Shown: piece by piece, positions 1 through 12,120 of the stretch
How positions within the stretch are numbered: position 1 is the first letter of the stretch
Layout of the letters: each line of letters starts with the position of its first letter
DNA from: Catellatospora bangladeshensis
Lineage (GTDB): Bacteria; Actinomycetota; Actinomycetes; Mycobacteriales; Micromonosporaceae
Direction of reading: 5' to 3'
Length of the DNA: 64,000 nucleotides
Assembly (NCBI RefSeq): GCF_016862575.1
Contig: NZ_BONF01000034.1
Coordinates: forward strand, 62,001 to 126,000
The notes under the pieces: model-generated
Database searches by the model: none
Told to the model about the DNA's origin: nothing
Seen by the model: the letters and a program-made list of their open reading frames with translations, nothing else
Program-made: the position numbers and the translations under genes

Positions 1-753
1 GTCCTCGTACGCGTAGACGGCTTTGACCCGCTCACCGGCCACGACGGTCTCGCCGGCCCATACCACCATCTCCCGCCGCAGGACCGGCTTGAGCCACGGG
101 AAGCCGGCCAGCCACCTGTTGTCGAACGCGATGGCCGCCTGCCGGTCGCCCTCCGTGGGCTGCGCGGCGGGCCGGCCCGCCGCGAGCACCGCCTCGGTGG
201 CCCTGCCCAGCGCCGCGCTGATCGGGCTGGTGCCCTTGCGCAGCTGCACCGACCGCGGGGAGATCCGCAGCATCTGCCGGTGCCCGCGCAGGAAGAGGTG
301 GTGACCCTGCCGGGTCAGACCGTGCTCGTCCAGCGCCAGCGACGACAGCACCAGGTCGTGGGCGTATCGGCCGTCGTTGACCAGCGCGTGGCCGGTGTGG
401 TGGTCGCCGCCGCTCAGCTCGGCGTACCCGTTGGGGTGGTGGCTGTGCCAGAGCCCCAGGAACTCCACGTCCGGATGCTCCTGGATCAGCCGCTGGTACA
501 CCCGGAACTGGTACTCGTTGTCGGAGTAGTGGTGCACCGCCGACCGGTCCGCGAGCGGGCCGTCGTCGATGAAGCCGCCGACGACGATCCGCAGCTTCGC
601 CAGCTCGCGCCGCCAACTGCGCGACGAGGCGTCGAAGTCGCCCTCGATCCACCCGACGAACTTGCCGCCGACCTCGTAGTCGGGGCTGGCCCCGATCTCG
701 TCGCGGACACGCTCCAGCACGTCCTCGTAGAACTCCAGGATCAGCTCGCTCAT
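1..753 (-). CDS. JAB/MPN (JAMM) metalloprotease, 3' end cut by window edge
   Basis: 251 codons are open from ATG at 753 to the window edge with no stop, so the C-terminus is missing. Residues about 20-120 carry a JAMM-type zinc site: Glu27 in YEVGG, then H103-S-H105 followed by S114-G-G-D117. JAMM proteins cleave isopeptide or peptide bonds next to ubiquitin-like modifiers. The HSH to Ser spacing is eight residues, one more than in classic eukaryotic JAMM, but I recall such spacing in bacterial E1/E2-linked JAB proteins. The start overlaps the stop of the E1-like gene by 4 bases (ATGA), so the two are translationally coupled. Expected role: processing or removal of the modifier of this cassette. 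Family call is strong; substrate is unknown. Confidence 0.85.
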   Translation of the reverse strand, partial: MSELILEFYEDVLERVRDEIGASPDYEVGGKFVGWIEGDFDASSRSWRRELAKLRIVVGGFIDDGPLADRSAVHHYSDNEYQFRVYQRLIQEHPDVEFLGLWHSHHPNGYAELSGGDHHTGHALVNDGRYAHDLVLSSLALDEHGLTRQGHHLFLRGHRQMLRISPRSVQLRKGTSPISAALGRATEAVLAAGRPAAQPTEGDRQAAIAFDNRWLAGFPWLKPVLRREMVVWAGETVVAGERVKAVYAYED

Positions 754-1604
754 GCCGCGCCCTCCGGCGTGGCGTCCTCCGGCGTGCCGCCGCAGTCGAG
801 GTAGCAGCTGCGCTGGGGCTTCACGAGGACCCGGGTCGTCGCGTAGTGGTGCGCGAAGACGTCCTTCTCCGGCCGGATCCCCACGGTCAGCCAGTTGAAC
901 GACAGCCGCGGCACGTACGACGACCTGCCGCCCATGAGCACGCTCCAGGCCATGTGCGCGTGCAGTCCCGCCACGATCGCGATGTCGACGGGCAGGCCGG
1001 AGGTCACGAAGTCGGCGTTGCCGATGCCGTAGCGCTCCCGCCGCTCCTCGCTGGTGAGGTCGAGCGCGTTCTCCAGGTTCAGCTGGTTCGCGTCGGCGAC
1101 CATCTGCATGCACGCGAAGCAGCCGGTGGCGCCCGGCGCGTACAGGTAGATCTGGCCGCCCACGCCCGTGCGCATCACCGAACCGGTCAGGCAGGGCCGC
1201 CGCAGCCGTACGCACTCGGCGTTGATCCAGCTGCGCACGGCGGGGTTGTCCACCGCGCAGATGACCAGGTGCGACCCGGCGGCCGCCGCCTCGAAGGCGT
1301 CCGACTGCTGCACGTCGGCGGCGTGCGCGTCGACCACGGCCGCCGGGTTGCGGTCCATGATCCAGTCGTGCAGCACGTCGACCTTGGGCCTGCCCAGGTC
1401 GGCGCGGCGGCCGGGGTGCTTCACCAGGTTGACCGGCTCCAGGACGTCCGGGTCGAACAGGTGCCAGCGGGCGATGCCGGCCATCGCCAGCGGCTGGAGC
1501 AGGGTCGCCCCGCCGCTGCCGAGACCGACCACGGTGACCGCCAGCTGGTTGACCGGCGAGTCCTCGAGCAGGTGCGCGATCCGTGCCGTGTCGAGCTTCT
1601 CCAT
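750..1604 (-). CDS. ThiF/E1-like adenylating enzyme
   Basis: 284 aa. The N-terminal Rossmann part has the nucleotide loop GLGSGG at 27-32, an acidic patch (FDPDVLEPVNL, 50-60) and later CAVDN at 116-120, as in ThiF/MoeB/E1 enzymes that adenylate a C-terminal carboxylate with ATP. Cys162-F-A-Cys165 and Cys267-x3-Cys271 probably bind the structural zinc. Other cysteines (116, 131, 138) could carry a thioester, but no classic E1 active-site loop is evident. It lies 6 bases after the E2-like gene and overlaps the JAB gene, so it is the middle of an E2-E1-JAB operon. Expected role: activation of the modifier or peptide substrate. Fold call strong, conjugation role inferred from context. Confidence 0.88.
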   Translation of the reverse strand: MEKLDTARIAHLLEDSPVNQLAVTVVGLGSGGATLLQPLAMAGIARWHLFDPDVLEPVNLVKHPGRRADLGRPKVDVLHDWIMDRNPAAVVDAHAADVQQSDAFEAAAAGSHLVICAVDNPAVRSWINAECVRLRRPCLTGSVMRTGVGGQIYLYAPGATGCFACMQMVADANQLNLENALDLTSEERRERYGIGNADFVTSGLPVDIAIVAGLHAHMAWSVLMGGRSSYVPRLSFNWLTVGIRPEKDVFAHHYATTRVLVKPQRSCYLDCGGTPEDATPEGAA

Positions 1605-1610
1605 CGTCGA

Positions 1611-2039
1611 TCAGTGCCCCTGTTCGGTTCCGGGCCAGTAGCCGTTGTGCCGGTACACCTCGTACTTGTTCAGCCAGATCGCGGCCTTGGCCACCGCCAC
1701 CGCCACCGAGTAGATGGGCCGCCACTGGTCGGGCCGCATGATGCACATGTTGCCCTCGACGTAGGCGTGCGGGCAGCTCTCGATCGCCCAGCCGTTCGGG
1801 AAGATCTTGGGCAGCCGGTGGGGGTAGTCCGACGGCAGCGCGACGTAGATCGCGTACTGCCGCCGCAGGTTCGTGGTGAGCTTGCCGTGCACCTGATAGG
1901 TGTTGCCGGACGCGGCCCACCGGAACTGCGGGAACGCGTTCGCGAGCCGGGCCTGCTCGACCGCCCACCGGTTCCTGCCCCGCAGGTCCTCGCCCAGGAT
2001 CAGCAGCCTGCGCGGGATGACGAAGTCGACATTGGACAT
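1611..2039 (-). CDS. E2-like (UBC-fold) conjugating protein
   Basis: 142 aa. The central part follows the E2 layout: a YPHRLPKIFP stretch (72-81) like the E2 PxxPP segment, then CPHAYVEGNMC (89-99) with candidate catalytic Cys99, a Trp106-x-Pro108 downstream, and a helix rich in Ala/Val (109-122). This mirrors the HPN...G.iCL...WSP pattern of E2 enzymes. It starts one base after the stop of the 52-aa gene and ends 6 bases before the E1-like gene, so the order is peptide, E2, E1, JAB. Expected role: accepts the activated modifier from the E1-like protein and passes it to a target. Size is typical of a minimal E2. No RING-type E3 is seen in the window. Confidence 0.8.
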   Translation of the reverse strand: MSNVDFVIPRRLLILGEDLRGRNRWAVEQARLANAFPQFRWAASGNTYQVHGKLTTNLRRQYAIYVALPSDYPHRLPKIFPNGWAIESCPHAYVEGNMCIMRPDQWRPIYSVAVAVAKAAIWLNKYEVYRHNGYWPGTEQGH

Positions 2040-2040
2040 C

Positions 2041-2199
2041 TCACATGTCCGCTCGGTAGTCGCCCTGCACGTCTACCATCGCGAGACCGCGGGCGTTCGG
2101 ATCGGAAGCGGGCTGGATCGTGCCGTCCTCGTTGATGATGATCGGCGTATCGTCCAGCTGCTCGTCGAGGAGCCGCTCGAGACGCTGCGTCTCGTTCAT
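2041..2199 (-). CDS. 52-aa protein leading a ubiquitin-like cassette
   Basis: ATG at 2199 is preceded by a perfect AGGAGG site five bases upstream, the strongest ribosome site in the cassette. The stop is one base before the E2-like start. The protein is acidic, begins MNETQRLERLLDEQLDD (a likely short helix), then a small hydrophobic turn (TPIIINEDG), and ends GDYRADM. It is too short for a beta-grasp ubiquitin fold and has no terminal Gly-Gly. Its position as first gene of a peptide-E2-E1-JAB operon makes it the obvious candidate for the conjugated or processed partner. That role is inference. I do not recognise a named family. Confidence 0.72.
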   Translation of the reverse strand: MNETQRLERLLDEQLDDTPIIINEDGTIQPASDPNARGLAMVDVQGDYRADM

Positions 2200-2214
2200 G
2201 TATTCCTCCTGAGG

Positions 2215-2470
2215 CTAGCTCCGGCCTCCCCTGCTGCCGGAGACGCGTTCGGCCTGAATGACTGCGCACACCCGGGCCACGGCGGCGGCCCCGCTCGGCC
2301 GGGCGCCGGGATCCTTCGCGAGCAGCTTGGCAATCAGCCGGTCCAGTGGGCCCGGCACCTCACGTCTGACGGACAGGACCCGGATCGGCGTCGCCGAACT
2401 GCTCCGGCGCCATGCGGGGAAGCGTGCCCAGCGCCATGTGCGGCGCGGTCATCGGGGAGAGCAGCCCGAG
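2215..2470 (-). pseudogene. Remnant of a Ser/Thr protein kinase
   Basis: Two kinase fragments lie in different frames. The first, about 2470-2360, reads MTAPHMALGTLPRMAPEQFG from 2452, matching the kinase activation segment GTxxYMAPEQ, and then hits a stop at 2360. The second, about 2375-2215, reads VPGPLDRLIAKLLAKDPGARPSG, the usual end of a bacterial kinase domain (P-L-x-x-L-I-x-x-L-L-A-K-D-P-x-x-R-P), and stops at 2215. The N-lobe, catalytic loop and the part between the fragments are absent, so this is a deletion relic. It sits between the ECF sigma gene and the ubiquitin-like cassette on the same strand, and its 3' end is 15 bases before the 52-aa start. Confidence 0.72.
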
Positions 2471-3776: not shown

Positions 3777-4195
3777 CAGAGCTGACCGGTCCGCTCGCGC
3801 CACGCCCGCTCCCGGATGATCCACTCGTTGTCCTGCGGGAACTCGTCGATGGTCGGCACCCGGCGGATCTCGCACTTCGAGCCGGCCGTCGCGGGCATCC
3901 GCTTGGCCCACTCCACGGCCTCCTCCTTGGTGGCCACGTCGATCAGGTAGAAGCCGCCGAACAGCTCCTTCGTCTCGCCGTACGGGCCGTCGGTCACCAC
4001 CGGCGTCTCGCCGCTGTAGTCGACCACCACACCCTGGCCCGCGTCGTCCAGGCCCTCGGCGGCGACCAGCACACCGGCCCGGATCAGCTCCTCGTTGAAG
4101 CGGCCGACCGTCTCCAGCATCTCCTCGAACGGGGTCTCCATCATCTTCGCGAGCGACTCGTCCGTCGCGCGCATGATCAGCATGTACTTCGCCAT
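3776..4195 (-). CDS. YCII/DGPF family protein, partner of ECF42 sigma
   Basis: 139 aa. Start chosen at ATG 4195 (MAKYMLIM), with AAGGAG eight bases upstream. The family signature is present as VTDGPYGETKELFGGFYLID near residue 65, with Tyr instead of Phe in DGPF. The fold is the ferredoxin-like YCII alpha-beta barrel, and no catalytic function is established for DGPF proteins. Such genes are common targets and neighbours of ECF42 sigma factors, which have been linked to stress responses. The two genes form a coupled unit with a one-base overlap. Confidence 0.92.
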   Translation of the reverse strand: MAKYMLIMRATDESLAKMMETPFEEMLETVGRFNEELIRAGVLVAAEGLDDAGQGVVVDYSGETPVVTDGPYGETKELFGGFYLIDVATKEEAVEWAKRMPATAGSKCEIRRVPTIDEFPQDNEWIIRERAWRERTGQL

Positions 4196-8314: not shown

Positions 8315-10675
8315 TCAGCAGGCGCCCTGGTCTGACCAGACCGCCCAGGACCCGGGCGCTCCCGGCTCGGCACCGGTCGACCACCAGGTCGCCTTCCACC
8401 GCCGCCCGTTGTGCGAGACGAGGTCGTCTGGCACATACGCGGTGGTGGAGCTCCATGCGGGCAGGCTGCCGCAGCCGCCACCACCGCCGGTCACGGTCAG
8501 AGTGAAGGTGGCGGTACGCGTCGCGGAGCTGCCCGCACCCGTCACCGTCAGCGTGTACGTCCCCGGCGCCGCGCTCGCCCCGACGGCGACCGACAGCGTC
8601 GCCCCGGCGCCCGAGGTCACCGACGACGGGCTGACCGACGCGGTCACCCCGGTCGGCGCGCCGGTCACCGACAGGTTCACCGTCTGCGCGCTGCCCGAGG
8701 TGGTCGTGGTGCCCACGCTCGCGCTGGTGGAGCCGCCGGCCGCGACGGTCGCGGAGGCCGGCGACAGCGACACGGCGAAGTCGTCGCCACCGGGCACGGT
8801 GGTGACCGTGACGGTGTACGTCGCCGTGTGCGTGGCGTTCGGCCCGGTGCCGGTGACGGTGACCGCCGCCGAGCCGGTCGCCGCCGAAGCGCTCGCGGTC
8901 AGCGTCAGCGTGCTGGACCCGCCGGAGGTGACCGACGACGGGCTGAAGCTGGCCGTCACCCCGGACGGCAGGCCGCTCGCGGTCAGGCTGACCGTCTGCG
9001 CGCTGCCGGAGGTGGTGGCGGTGCTGACGGTCGTGCTGACGCTGCTGCCGCGCTGCACCGTACCGCTGCCGGGGCTGACCGTCAGCGAGAAGTCGTTGCC
9101 CGGCGCAATGCTGCACTGGGCCTCACCGGACTGCGCGGGCACGCTGACCGCGTCCCAGGCCGCCTTCACCGTGCGGCACTCCGCCGACGACGCGCCGAAC
9201 AGGTTCACGGCCGCGCGCAGCGTCGCCGTGCGCACGTTGACGTAGCGCCAGCTCGACGTCTTCAGGTTGAGCGCGGCCATGTAGATCTGGCCCGCCTTCT
9301 GGATGCCGATGCCGGTGACCGTCGAGCCGTTGCAGGTCGGGCTGGCCGGGTTGCCGCCGCCCCCGGCCGAGCCGATCGCGGTCAGGTAGAACCAGTGGTT
9401 GTTCGGGCCGGCCGCGGCGTGCACCTCGGTGTTCGGGATGGCCGAGCTGTAGCAGTTCGGGTCGCCGAGCGCCTGCGGGTTGTACATGTTGCGGATCGGG
9501 CCCTGCCCGACGAGGTTGACCTCCTCGCCGACGAGGTAGTCCGGCGGGTCGTTGGGGTTGTTGGCGTACGCCTCGGTGAGCGCGCCGAAGATGTCGCCCG
9601 TGGACTCGTTGATGCCGCCGTTCTCGTTGCCGGATCCGGCGCCACCGGGGGTGGTCTGGAAGATCGCGTGGCCGTACTCGTGCGCGACGACGTCGATCGG
9701 GGTGGCCTGGCCGGTGCCCGCCTGGTTGCGGCCGAAGTTGGTGTAGCTGCCGTTCCAGTACGCGTTGACCTCGGCGAGGCCGACCCGGGCGGGGAAGCCG
9801 CCGCCGCTGCCGTTGATGCCGTTGCGGCCGAGCCAGGAGCTGAGCATGTCCCACTCGCGCTGCACGGCATAGAGCGCGTCGACGCAGGCGGTCTCCAGGT
9901 TCGTGCCGGAGCCGTTGCCCCAGTTGTCGTCGGTGCCGGTGTACGCGGCGCCGTTCTGGCCGCCGCAGCGGATGCCGGGCCGGGTGTTGTCGGTCATCGA
10001 CCAGGAGCTGCCGGAGCCGCTGGTGGTGATGCTGACCTGGCCGTTGTAGTAGCCGTTGCCGGTGCCCATGCGCACGTCGTCGCGCACGTCGAGCACGGCG
10101 GCCGTGTGCGCGTCGACGACGACGTGCAGGCGGCTGGGCGCACCGGCCTTGACGCCTTCGAGCACGACGGCGTACGCGAGCCGGTCGCCGCGCTCGCCCG
10201 CGTGCACGGCGAGCTGCGCCGGGGTGAGCTGCCGGACCTTGTCGAGCTGCTTGCGCGCGACGGTCTCGGCGCGCGCCGCGGTGATCTTCGGGGTGGTCGT
10301 GGTGAGGGTGACGCCGCGGCCGAGCGCGGAGGCGGTGTCGCGCACGGCGCCCTTGGCGTCGGTGACCACGACGGCGTCGCCGCCGAGCACGGGCAGGCCG
10401 CGGTAGGTGCGCTCGTAGGACACGTACTGGAAGCCACCCGAGCCGGACACGACGTCGCGGCGCAGGAAGGATTCGTCGGGGCCCTTGGCGAGGGCGTCGT
10501 AGCCGCTGTTCGCGGCGCGGTCGGCGGCGGCCGCCGCGAGCACGGCCGGGTCGGCGGCCGGGGCGGGTGCGGCGGCGGGACTGTCGATGGCGCCGGACAC
10601 GCCCGGGATCACCAGGGCGAGGCCCACGGCCGCGGCGGTGGCCGCGAGCGTGATCCGTATGCCGATGGACTTCAC
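8315..10675 (-). CDS. Secreted M4 (thermolysin-family) metalloprotease with C-terminal binding module
   Basis: 786 aa. Start set at GTG 10675 (AAGGAG nine bases upstream), which puts a signal peptide (KSIGIRITLAATAAAVGLALV) at the N-terminus; the longer open frame is not needed. Order: signal peptide, FTP/PepSY-type propeptide (about 50-190), catalytic domain (about 205-520) with zinc motif H332-E-Y-G-H336 and third ligand near Glu357 (GGINESTGD). Two repeated Ig-like/beta domains of about 85 residues follow (FSLTVSPGSGTV and FAVSLSPASATV). The C-terminal CBM5/12-like module is WSSTTAYVPDDLVSHNGRRW...WWSTGAEPG. It is an exported, self-processed neutral protease, probably held on polysaccharide. 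The neighbour S1 protease has the same tail. Confidence 0.95.
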   Translation of the reverse strand: MKSIGIRITLAATAAAVGLALVIPGVSGAIDSPAAAPAPAADPAVLAAAAADRAANSGYDALAKGPDESFLRRDVVSGSGGFQYVSYERTYRGLPVLGGDAVVVTDAKGAVRDTASALGRGVTLTTTTPKITAARAETVARKQLDKVRQLTPAQLAVHAGERGDRLAYAVVLEGVKAGAPSRLHVVVDAHTAAVLDVRDDVRMGTGNGYYNGQVSITTSGSGSSWSMTDNTRPGIRCGGQNGAAYTGTDDNWGNGSGTNLETACVDALYAVQREWDMLSSWLGRNGINGSGGGFPARVGLAEVNAYWNGSYTNFGRNQAGTGQATPIDVVAHEYGHAIFQTTPGGAGSGNENGGINESTGDIFGALTEAYANNPNDPPDYLVGEEVNLVGQGPIRNMYNPQALGDPNCYSSAIPNTEVHAAAGPNNHWFYLTAIGSAGGGGNPASPTCNGSTVTGIGIQKAGQIYMAALNLKTSSWRYVNVRTATLRAAVNLFGASSAECRTVKAAWDAVSVPAQSGEAQCSIAPGNDFSLTVSPGSGTVQRGSSVSTTVSTATTSGSAQTVSLTASGLPSGVTASFSPSSVTSGGSSTLTLTASASAATGSAAVTVTGTGPNATHTATYTVTVTTVPGGDDFAVSLSPASATVAAGGSTSASVGTTTTSGSAQTVNLSVTGAPTGVTASVSPSSVTSGAGATLSVAVGASAAPGTYTLTVTGAGSSATRTATFTLTVTGGGGGCGSLPAWSSTTAYVPDDLVSHNGRRWKATWWSTGAEPGAPGSWAVWSDQGAC

Positions 10676-10711
10676 GAGGACGGACTCCTTAGGAAGGGGT
10701 GTGCGGGGGGT

Positions 10712-10748
10712 GGTGGCCTGGGCGTTTCTCCAGGACGCCCAGGCCACC
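10712..10748 (-). terminator. Hairpin terminator between the S1 and M4 protease genes
   Basis: Perfect 14-bp stem GGTGGCCTGGGCGT / ACGCCCAGGCCACC with a 9-base loop, 20 bases after the S1 protease stop and 37 bases before the M4 start. It suggests the two proteases are separate transcripts or that M4 is expressed by partial readthrough. Confidence 0.75.
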
Positions 10749-10767
10749 TGATGGGGAGGAACGCTTG

Positions 10768-12120
10768 CTAGCAGGAGCCCTTGTCGGCCCAGACGGCCCA
10801 GGACCCGGCCGCGCCGGGCTCGGCGCCGGTGGACCACCAGGTGGCCTCGTAGCGGCGGCCGTTGTAGGAGACGGTCGCGCCGGGCGCGTACGCCGTGGTG
10901 GCGCTCCAACCGGGCAGCCCGCCGCAGCCCGGCGGCGGGCCGGTCGGGCCCGCGGTCGGGGTGGGGCCGGTGCTCGGCGGGGTGCCGCCGCTGACGGTCA
11001 GGGTCAGGCCGTAGGTCTGCAGGATCTCGTTGACCGGCTGGAAGTAGGTGGTGCCGCCGGAGCTGCAGTTGCCCGAGCCGCCCGAGGTGACACCCTGCGC
11101 CTGGTCACCGGCGATGAGCGAGCCGCCGGAGTCGCCGGGCTCGGCGCAGACGTTGGTCCGGATCAGACCGGACACGGTGCCCTGGGAGTAGGTCACCGAG
11201 CTGTTGAGAGCGTTGATGGTGCCGCAGTGCCAGCCCGTGGTCGAGCCCGAGCGGCACACCGACGCGCCGACCCCGGCCGCCTGCGAACCGGCCACGGGCA
11301 CCGTGCCCGAGTAGCGGTTGACCAGCGCGCGGGGCGTGTTCCCGGCGGCGGTGCGGACCCAGGCGTAGTCGTTGCCCGGGAAGCTGGACCCGGCGAAGCT
11401 GCCGCTGGGCTGGGTGGTGCTCGCGCCGGTGCTGCCGCAGTGCCCGGCGGTGACGAAGCCGCCGGTGACCGCGAAGCCGACCGAGCAGCGGGTGCCGCTG
11501 CCGATGTAGTACGCGTTGCCGCCGATGATGTCGATCAGCGGGCGCGGCTGCTCGGTGCTGACCTCGTAGCGCACGCTCGCGGCGTCGAGGCCGGCGGCGG
11601 CGGCCCAGGTGCGGGCCGCGTCGAGGGCGCCGTCGTGGTACATGACGACGACCTTGTTGGTGCGCACGTCCGGGTACCAGCCGGGCACCTGCTTGGGCGC
11701 GGCGGCGGCGCGGCGGTCGAGGCGGGCGGCCGCCGCGGCGAGCCCGGCCTCGCTGCGCTCGACGACGACCGGGACAGCACCGGCGGCCCGGACCCGGGCG
11801 CTGTCGGCGCGGCGGGTCACCGCGACGGTGAGCTGGGAGGCGTCGGTGTTGAGGTACGCGCCGCCGAAGCCGTCGCCGAGGACCCGGCGCAGGCCGTCCT
11901 CGGTGCGGGCGAACGCGGCCTCGCGGCCGAGCCGGGACAGCGCCTGCTCCGGGCTGACGCCCAGGGTGCGGGCGAGCTCGGCGACCATGCCGCGGTCGGC
12001 GTGCACGGGTGCGGCAGCGGGGGCGGTGCTGCCGGCCATCGCGGTCGGCGCGACGAGCAGGGCCGCGGCAAGCCCTGTCGCGGCAAGCACGGTAGTGATC
12101 AAAGTGGATCTGTTGGCCAT
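10768..12120 (-). CDS. Secreted S1 (alpha-lytic/streptogrisin-type) serine protease with binding module
   Basis: 450 aa. A signal peptide (about 1-29) is followed by an alpha-lytic-type propeptide (40-200). The mature chymotrypsin-like domain starts near DIIGGNAYYIGSG, with triad His227 (TAGHCG), Asp251 (GNDYAWV) and Ser331 (EPGDSGGSL), and Cys pairs for disulfides. A Pro/Thr/Gly linker leads to a CBM5/12-like module (WSATTAYAPGATVSYNGRRY...WWSTGAEPGAAGSW). Streptogrisins are exported with a propeptide that folds then releases the protease. The module matches that of the M4 protease almost residue for residue in its second half. The upstream spacer to the divergent methyltransferase gene contains a palindrome. 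Confidence 0.95.
   Translation of the reverse strand: MANRSTLITTVLAATGLAAALLVAPTAMAGSTAPAAAPVHADRGMVAELARTLGVSPEQALSRLGREAAFARTEDGLRRVLGDGFGGAYLNTDASQLTVAVTRRADSARVRAAGAVPVVVERSEAGLAAAAARLDRRAAAAPKQVPGWYPDVRTNKVVVMYHDGALDAARTWAAAAGLDAASVRYEVSTEQPRPLIDIIGGNAYYIGSGTRCSVGFAVTGGFVTAGHCGSTGASTTQPSGSFAGSSFPGNDYAWVRTAAGNTPRALVNRYSGTVPVAGSQAAGVGASVCRSGSTTGWHCGTINALNSSVTYSQGTVSGLIRTNVCAEPGDSGGSLIAGDQAQGVTSGGSGNCSSGGTTYFQPVNEILQTYGLTLTVSGGTPPSTGPTPTAGPTGPPPGCGGLPGWSATTAYAPGATVSYNGRRYEATWWSTGAEPGAAGSWAVWADKGSC

Follow-up and report, generated by a model that had tools for sequence, protein, structure and literature searches.

A stretch of 64,000 nucleotides from Catellatospora bangladeshensis (hereinafter, the window; contig NZ_BONF01000034.1 of an 8.83-Mb genome) carries at its left edge a minus-strand cassette of four genes that encode a peptide of 52 amino acids, an E2-like protein, an E1-like protein and a JAB-family protease, and that appears to comprise a ubiquitin-like conjugation system in which the peptide itself is the modifier. 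From the comparison of sequences, we put this reading at somewhat better than even, with a probability of about 0.55. Since the relatives of the cassette keep the peptide and some of them adjoin immune-type genes, it probably serves as a very small protein tag, and the system is best read as a variant of the E1-E2-JAB systems that employs a peptide modifier other than a beta-grasp protein and has links to immunity.

A sequence-only reading of the same DNA had described four tightly packed genes, and the cassette is present where that reading placed it, with all genes on the minus strand, in the order peptide, E2, E1, JAB and with spacings of +1 (peptide/E2), +6 (E2/E1) and -4 bases (E1/JAB), precisely as described. 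The JAB gene, for which disruption beyond the window had been contemplated, is intact and encodes 328 amino acids; it ends 234 bases beyond the window edge (stop codon, L002:9767-9769).

Searches with E1, in which the peptide played no part, yielded ten relatives that, together with the window's own cassette, make up the 11 cassettes denoted here type I, one of them on a plasmid. The genome sets of these searches overlap. Within the same family, 2 of 354 genomes had matches at a threshold of 1e-30. Searches at 1e-25 gave matches in 4 of 397 and 4 of 394 genomes, of which one and two, respectively, were type I and the others belonged to a second family, denoted type II. Further searches gave 1 of 249 genomes and 2 of 249, the latter both type II; in another family, 10 of 200 genomes matched (seven type I and three type II), and in one genus, two of seven. 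The type I system is rare and patchy within the genomes searched, given that so few of them matched. The phage and plasmid searches produced a single type I cassette, on a plasmid of Mesorhizobium sp. AR10; the remaining plasmid matches that were read were similar to the cyclic oligonucleotide-based antiphage signalling system (CBASS), multiubiquitin loci, type II loci and two loci resembling microcin C operons. Pattern scans of genome and viral collections returned zero true relatives; their one match, in Vibrio, proved to be a ThiF among thiamine-type genes.

When gene order was compared among the relatives, as the sequence-only reading had proposed, the order peptide, E2, E1, JAB was found to be kept in all 11 cassettes, and the small protein, whose absence from homologous loci had been entertained, was present in every one of them. 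In a 22-row tree, the type I E1s form one group (support 94/90), with the Mesorhizobium protein as a long branch. The Mesorhizobium cassette contains, in addition, an E2-like gene with a Phd/YefM-like start placed between E2 and E1 (L014:4380-4910); the Phd/YefM-like start is joined to an E2-like domain whose active-site Cys position is, by eye, occupied by Ser. This copy may be broken because its E1, as annotated, lacks the N-terminal nucleotide (Gly) motif, and a different frame gives a weak match to E1 (E 0.0088). A decayed second cassette was observed in genome G1507 (L052:3350-6275), with a peptide that lacks the C-terminal motif, an interrupted E2 and no match for E1 or JAB; it adjoins BTAD-Macro, CATASP and CATRA sequence. 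The E2 matches in this decayed locus and in the type II loci come from a four-row seed profile that includes one mis-framed row, and the statements on E2 of the 11 type I cassettes rest on corrected alignments.

The peptide gene is genuine and belongs to what defines the cassettes found. Its ATG is closely preceded by the ribosome-binding sequence AGGAGG, and a hidden Markov model made from four cassettes (the window's and three relatives) located the peptide where it was expected in all seven further loci, with E values from 2.8e-21 to 4.8e-9, versus 0.87 for the best other small open reading frame (ORF) in a set of 1173. An 11-row profile, which includes the carriers' own peptides, found the peptide in 10 of 10 carrier genomes and in none of five non-carriers of the same genera, the sole extra site being the decayed cassette in G1507; in one family, it matched 3 of 110 genomes, all three cassette carriers. 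In three close pairs, the ratio of nonsynonymous to synonymous substitution rates is 0.15-0.21 for the peptide versus 0.21-0.32 for E2, and the substitutions in the peptide pile up at third codon positions; purifying selection acts on the peptide no less strongly than on E2. The gap between the peptide and E2 genes is -4 bases in six cassettes, 1-5 bases in four and 30 in one. The sequence-only reading had depicted a very small, acidic protein; the size holds throughout type I (45-57 amino acids), whereas acidity is not a family trait (isoelectric points of 4.05-6.82 for the 11 peptides). Cys is absent from all 11 peptides. In Pfam, PADLOC and NCBIfam, nothing matched the window's peptide at E values up to 1, and none of three type I peptides scanned with Pfam scored over the cut-off.

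Across the 11 peptides, E8, L11, G26 and G46 are invariant, and D25 and D43 nearly so. The C-terminal pattern D-x-x-G-[DE]-[YF] is found in 10 of them, with E-N-L-G-G-E-Y in Mesorhizobium. The tails that follow [DE][YF] consist of 0, 0, 1, 1, 1, 1, 3, 4, 4, 6 and 6 residues and show little likeness between groups. In the closest pair (L038/L039), there are no nonsynonymous changes over the 46 codons of the body that were compared and two in the six-residue tail, a signal of tail drift that is weak alone, coming as it does from two changes in one pair, with the one-residue tails of the other two close pairs unchanged. A single-sequence model places a helix at residues 4-14 and a hairpin at 20-22/28-30, followed by coil; at a mean predicted local distance difference test score (pLDDT) of 62, this is only a hint of a fold with a helix, a beta-hairpin and a flexible C-terminal part, too weak for a fold search. 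The PDB matches of the peptide profile (best E 8.6e-9) were mostly designed repeat proteins that aligned with the hairpin only and were rejected as bias.

The three enzymes unite, in one operon, the ATP-site motifs of an E1, the active-site Cys of an E2 and the JAMM motif of a JAB protease, with the Mesorhizobium E1 lacking the N-terminal Gly motif. E2 matches the PADLOC E2 profile (6.5e-11) and falls below the Pfam UQ_con cut-off; the best solved structures for its 11-row profile are 2a7l (2.1e-8) and UBE2W (2mt6, 6.2e-8). Besides the start, 13 residues of E2 are invariant, including H91 and C99 in all 11 sequences. E1 matches Pfam ThiF (8.8e-31), and its profile retrieves from the PDB MccB first (6.1e-25), followed by MoeB, ThiF and eukaryotic E1s, with PaaA at 6.9e-11. 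The Cys pairs 162/165 and 267/271 are kept and, judged by position, are likely zinc ligands. JAB matches the PADLOC JAB profile (7e-5) and scores below the Pfam Prok-JAB cut-off, and a Prok-JAB search of its own genome did not return it. The active-site residues assigned to it from the sequence, E27, H103, H105, S114 and D117, are all present and invariant in a five-row alignment, and the same motif is seen in the 11-row alignment. The C-terminal half of JAB is weakly E2-like (hhalign P 0.0034), which is suggestive only.

No ubiquitin-like modifier family was matched among the neighbour genes scanned, where the sole beta-grasp match was a domain inside a glutamine synthetase near L041. The ThiS/MoaD genes of ten carrier genomes are on other contigs or more than 100 kb away (the Mesorhizobium record was left out, and for G1476 the contig spans only 7.8 kb), so that the canonical ubiquitin-fold modifier that might have been encoded elsewhere was not encountered close to the cassettes. 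These results support the original description of an E2-E1-JAB cassette with a very small protein and no beta-grasp modifier. Of the neighbour genes that Pfam was used to scan, none was named as an exporter, and no CD-NTase was found among the four genes beside the window's cassette or the other Pfam-scanned neighbours, a scan that did not take in every neighbour of every locus.

Five of the 11 cassettes adjoin conflict genes of the BTAD-Macro, CATASP or CATRA-TIR kinds. In all five (L035 and L037-L040), the adjoining genes include one for a BTAD regulator with a fused ThsA-type Macro domain; CATASP is found at four loci, and CATRA-N/C with a CAP12-type TIR domain at three (the CATRA and TIR domains were recognized by Pfam in L035 and L038, and in L039 by a profile of those two). 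This block is located upstream of the cassette in two loci and downstream in three, and at one of the 11 loci, a CHAT-TPR gene lies about 0.9 kb upstream of the cassette. Nine CATASP genes are distributed over 5 of 10 carrier genomes, and five of the nine have a type I cassette no more than a few kb away (four intact, one decayed). CATRA ternary conflict systems are found, whole or in part, beside these five cassettes, the conjugation cassette being an add-on to such systems; in the literature, we found no record of their pairing with a conjugation cassette and a peptide. At the Mesorhizobium locus, an MBL-like gene and a gene for a patatin-like phospholipase adjoin the cassette. In one subgroup of cassettes, a common fifth gene without a Pfam family directly follows JAB, at L005:6840-7307 and L041:7812-8267 (155 and 151 amino acids).

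The more distant E1 matches (L031-L034 and L042-L044) that constitute type II are accompanied by another small protein, with a motif around KRMVLNPxTGKFEV and EDMRxF and a length of 58-71 amino acids that depends on the chosen starts. Six loci have its gene between E2 and E1; in L033, it precedes E1 (a weak match, 0.033). Four of the seven loci served as seeds of the type II profile, which then found L043 (4.7e-26) and L032 (4.4e-24); four of these small proteins were scanned, with no Pfam match over the cut-off. The first approximately 60 residues of a Bradyrhizobium plasmid E1 (L015:4464-5915) fit the type II profile with 16.9 bits, versus a best of 9.2 in 5000 shuffles, so this N-terminus seems to be a type II small protein fused in frame; the same locus contains a dsDNA nuclease-domain gene and a TIR gene. 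No homology between the type I and type II small proteins was found (hhalign probability 0.2; hidden Markov model score below the best shuffles). Type II both widens the picture and cautions that the small protein may be a partner of E1 rather than a tag.

Type II CBASS (a name unrelated to our type II) resembles the type I cassettes in combining E1, E2 and JAB, in conjugating, as proposed for type I, a substrate that is not ubiquitin-like and in having a conserved Gly at the C-terminus or close to it; it also has TIR effectors, and two CBASS-type E1s, on long branches, group with type I in the tree. In the plasmid searches, two CBASS loci encode a presumed cyclase that ends in DTPQG or DAPQG (one annotated as a nucleotidyltransferase-domain protein, the other as hypothetical), which is loosely like the D-x-x-G of 10 of the 11 peptides except that D is one residue farther from Gly. 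According to excerpts of PMC10097602, Cap2 (E1-E2) conjugates the cyclase, which lacks the ubiquitin fold, via a C-terminal Gly or Ala at which Cap3 (JAB) cuts, conservation of this terminal residue is restricted to systems that have Cap2 and Cap3, and a phospholipase is among the effectors; in Bacillus, excerpts of PMC11153139 describe the cyclase as held on PspA and freed by Cap3. Unlike type II CBASS, the cassettes described here show no CD-NTase and have instead the 45-57-residue peptide, in which Gly is followed by 2-8 residues, and their E2 and E1 are encoded by separate genes.

Because of the CBASS precedent, we read the invariant Gly as the working end of the peptide, [DE][YF] and the tail as the part that would be removed by JAB, and C99 of E2 as the carrier. 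The peptide would be made as a precursor and cut by JAB, most likely after the invariant Gly and less likely after Tyr/Phe; E1 would then adenylate the freed C-terminus and might hand the peptide straight to C99, a direct transfer that may apply because there is no conserved Cys in the usual crossover region of E1. E2 would attach the peptide to a lysine of a target, and JAB would take it off again. The likely target or beneficiary would be an immune effector or regulator, CATRA-TIR with BTAD-Macro or patatin, that the tag would hold silent or primed, as CBASS does with its cyclase; CATRA-TIR or the Macro regulator as the target is a guess from gene position alone.

Several observations weigh against the peptide as modifier. 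E1 has no conserved Cys between the two pairs, where a transfer Cys would sit, and the invariant C131 lies ahead of them; among solved structures, E1 is closest to the MccB enzymes, and these modify a free peptide. True propeptides usually drift directly after the mature Gly, and here [DE][YF] is kept after Gly in 11 of 11 peptides, two of which have no tail beyond it; therefore, trimming would not be demanded should the cut fall after [YF]. The type II small protein is apparently fused to the N-terminus of E1 in one case and, therefore, a free C-terminus of this protein is not needed there. In the stretches examined of six of the 11 cassettes, the window's included, no CATRA-type gene was found; 5 of 10 carrier genomes, the window's among them, have no CATASP, and beside the window's cassette no effector was recognized. 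Two pairs of loci share a genus, so the 11 are not independent, and the Mesorhizobium row combines its long branch with an odd make-up.

An alternative that we regard as unlikely, and yet as one to be taken seriously, is that the peptide is a small enzyme subunit, its helix and hairpin bridging E1 and E2 or controlling access to the E1 pocket, with the modifier being a protein encoded elsewhere or the effector. The small protein of type II, next to E1 and apparently fused to it in Bradyrhizobium, favors this possibility, as do the conservation of [DE][YF] after Gly, as for a binding motif, and the hairpin residues D25-G26, which are as conserved as the C-terminus. However, there is no ubiquitin-like modifier gene near the cassettes tested, Gly is invariant while the residues beyond [DE][YF] vary, and the type I and type II small proteins share no detectable homology. 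The leader hypothesis, under which the small ORF would serve E2 translation without any protein function, is hardly credible: the ORF is short, comes first and, in 6 of 11 cassettes, has a four-base overlap with E2, but it is under strong constraint at the amino acid level, with changes concentrated at third codon positions.

The affinity of the E1 profile to MccB and PaaA, the best solved relatives, and the lack of a conserved crossover Cys could also point to a pathway for ribosomally synthesized and post-translationally modified peptides (RiPPs), in which the E1-like enzyme would modify the peptide as MccB does MccA, with the product released by JAB; as proposed for type I, MccB and ThiF-like RiPP enzymes employ an E1-like domain on a short ribosomal peptide. 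We deem this improbable inasmuch as a conserved E2 with an active-site Cys, present in all 11 cassettes, has no known place in such pathways, and excerpts of a 2025 review of ThiF-like RiPP enzymes do not mention 'E2-like' or 'JAB' (PMC12250964). The two microcin C-like plasmid loci have neither E2 nor JAB and carry an MFS gene right after ThiF, as opposed to the cassettes, with no exporter among their Pfam-scanned neighbours and immune-type genes as part of them. Slightly less plausible still, the peptide might be an antitoxin or inhibitor of an adjoining effector on which the conjugation enzymes act to switch the effector on, a scheme compatible with its first place in the cassette, the presence of toxin-like genes at some of the loci and the Phd/YefM-E2-like fusion in Mesorhizobium, but not easily with its retention in cassettes that have no recognized effector, the window's included.

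Pup is likewise a small, mostly flexible protein tag used via its C-terminus, the role proposed here for the type I peptide; however, the type I enzymes are of the ThiF, UBC and JAB families, not PafA, and the peptides do not end in GG[EQ]. The Bil and Bub systems have a modifier, E2, E1 and JAB in one operon, and their modifiers, like those of the polyubiquitin-like (polyUbl) operons, are beta-grasp proteins, which the type I peptide is not recognizably, as judged by Pfam, a ThiS-family search and the low-confidence model. Excerpts of Iyer 2006 (PMC1779556) present operons 6a-6e, of triple-module, E2-E1, beta-grasp ubiquitin-like (Ubl) and polyUbl types, of which the Ubl and polyUbl ones (6d, 6e) also have the modifier, E2, E1 and JAB in one operon, and a peptide of the type I sort is not among the types in those excerpts. 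Ubl systems appear in conflict operons in excerpts of Kaur 2020 and 2021 (PMC7159879, PMC8195603), and Bub and Bil are named in an excerpt of PMC13373217. Nothing in this literature was recognized as a peptide-E2-E1-JAB arrangement, which does not prove its absence from print, key papers being outside the coverage.

Coordinates of the cassette and of the type II small proteins (window positions unless a locus is named)
Feature	Position	Strand	Basis
Small protein, 52 amino acids, candidate modifier precursor	2041..2199	-	ORF, hidden Markov model, dN/dS, low-confidence model
AGGAGG, ribosome-binding site of the peptide gene	2205..2210	-	read from the sequence
G46-D47-Y48, conserved G-[DE]-[YF] motif	2056..2064	-	11-row alignment, G46 invariant 11/11
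C-terminal tail R49-M52, possible propeptide	2044..2055	-	variable over 11 peptides
E2 (UBC-fold) enzyme, 142 amino acids	1611..2039	-	profile and alignment, H91 and C99 invariant 11/11
E1/ThiF-type adenylating enzyme, 284 amino acids	750..1604	-	Pfam ThiF; likely zinc Cys pairs 162/165 and 267/271
JAB/JAMM protease, residues 1-251 of 328	1..753; full gene L002:9767-10753	-	motif alignment
Type II small proteins	L031:5961-6155, L034:4396-4590, L044:5567-5770, L042:5822-6022, L043:5744-5944, L032 near 3937-4149, L033:5501-5689		

Next to the window's cassette, the four genes that were scanned encode an epimerase, a glyoxalase, a sigma factor and a YCII protein. A short ORF just upstream of the peptide gene (window 2215-2358) looks, by eye, like a C-terminal scrap of a Ser/Thr kinase. 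Farther along the window, also by eye, minus-strand genes at 8315-10909 and 10768-12120 appear to encode a thermolysin-like protease (HEYGH) and a streptogrisin-like serine protease, both secreted and both with a similar carbohydrate-binding-like repeat at the C-terminus.

Ubiquitin-type conjugation generally goes with the beta-grasp fold, and the CBASS exception uses a whole enzyme as the modifier. It is conceivable, although we would not yet bet on it, that the peptide, as a JAB-matured, stand-alone tag of 45-57 residues that lacks the ubiquitin fold and controls CATRA-TIR and phospholipase immune effectors, is smaller than any modifier known from ubiquitin-type E1-E2 cascades. If the peptide is indeed the modifier, a dedicated tag of approximately 50 residues would reveal how few features suffice for recognition by an E1-E2 pair and would represent a minimal, easily engineered tag. 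Taken together with type II, it would imply that bacterial E1-E2 enzymes have been paired more than once with tiny non-ubiquitin partners, and it would place covalent tagging in the CATRA-type immunity of actinomycetes.

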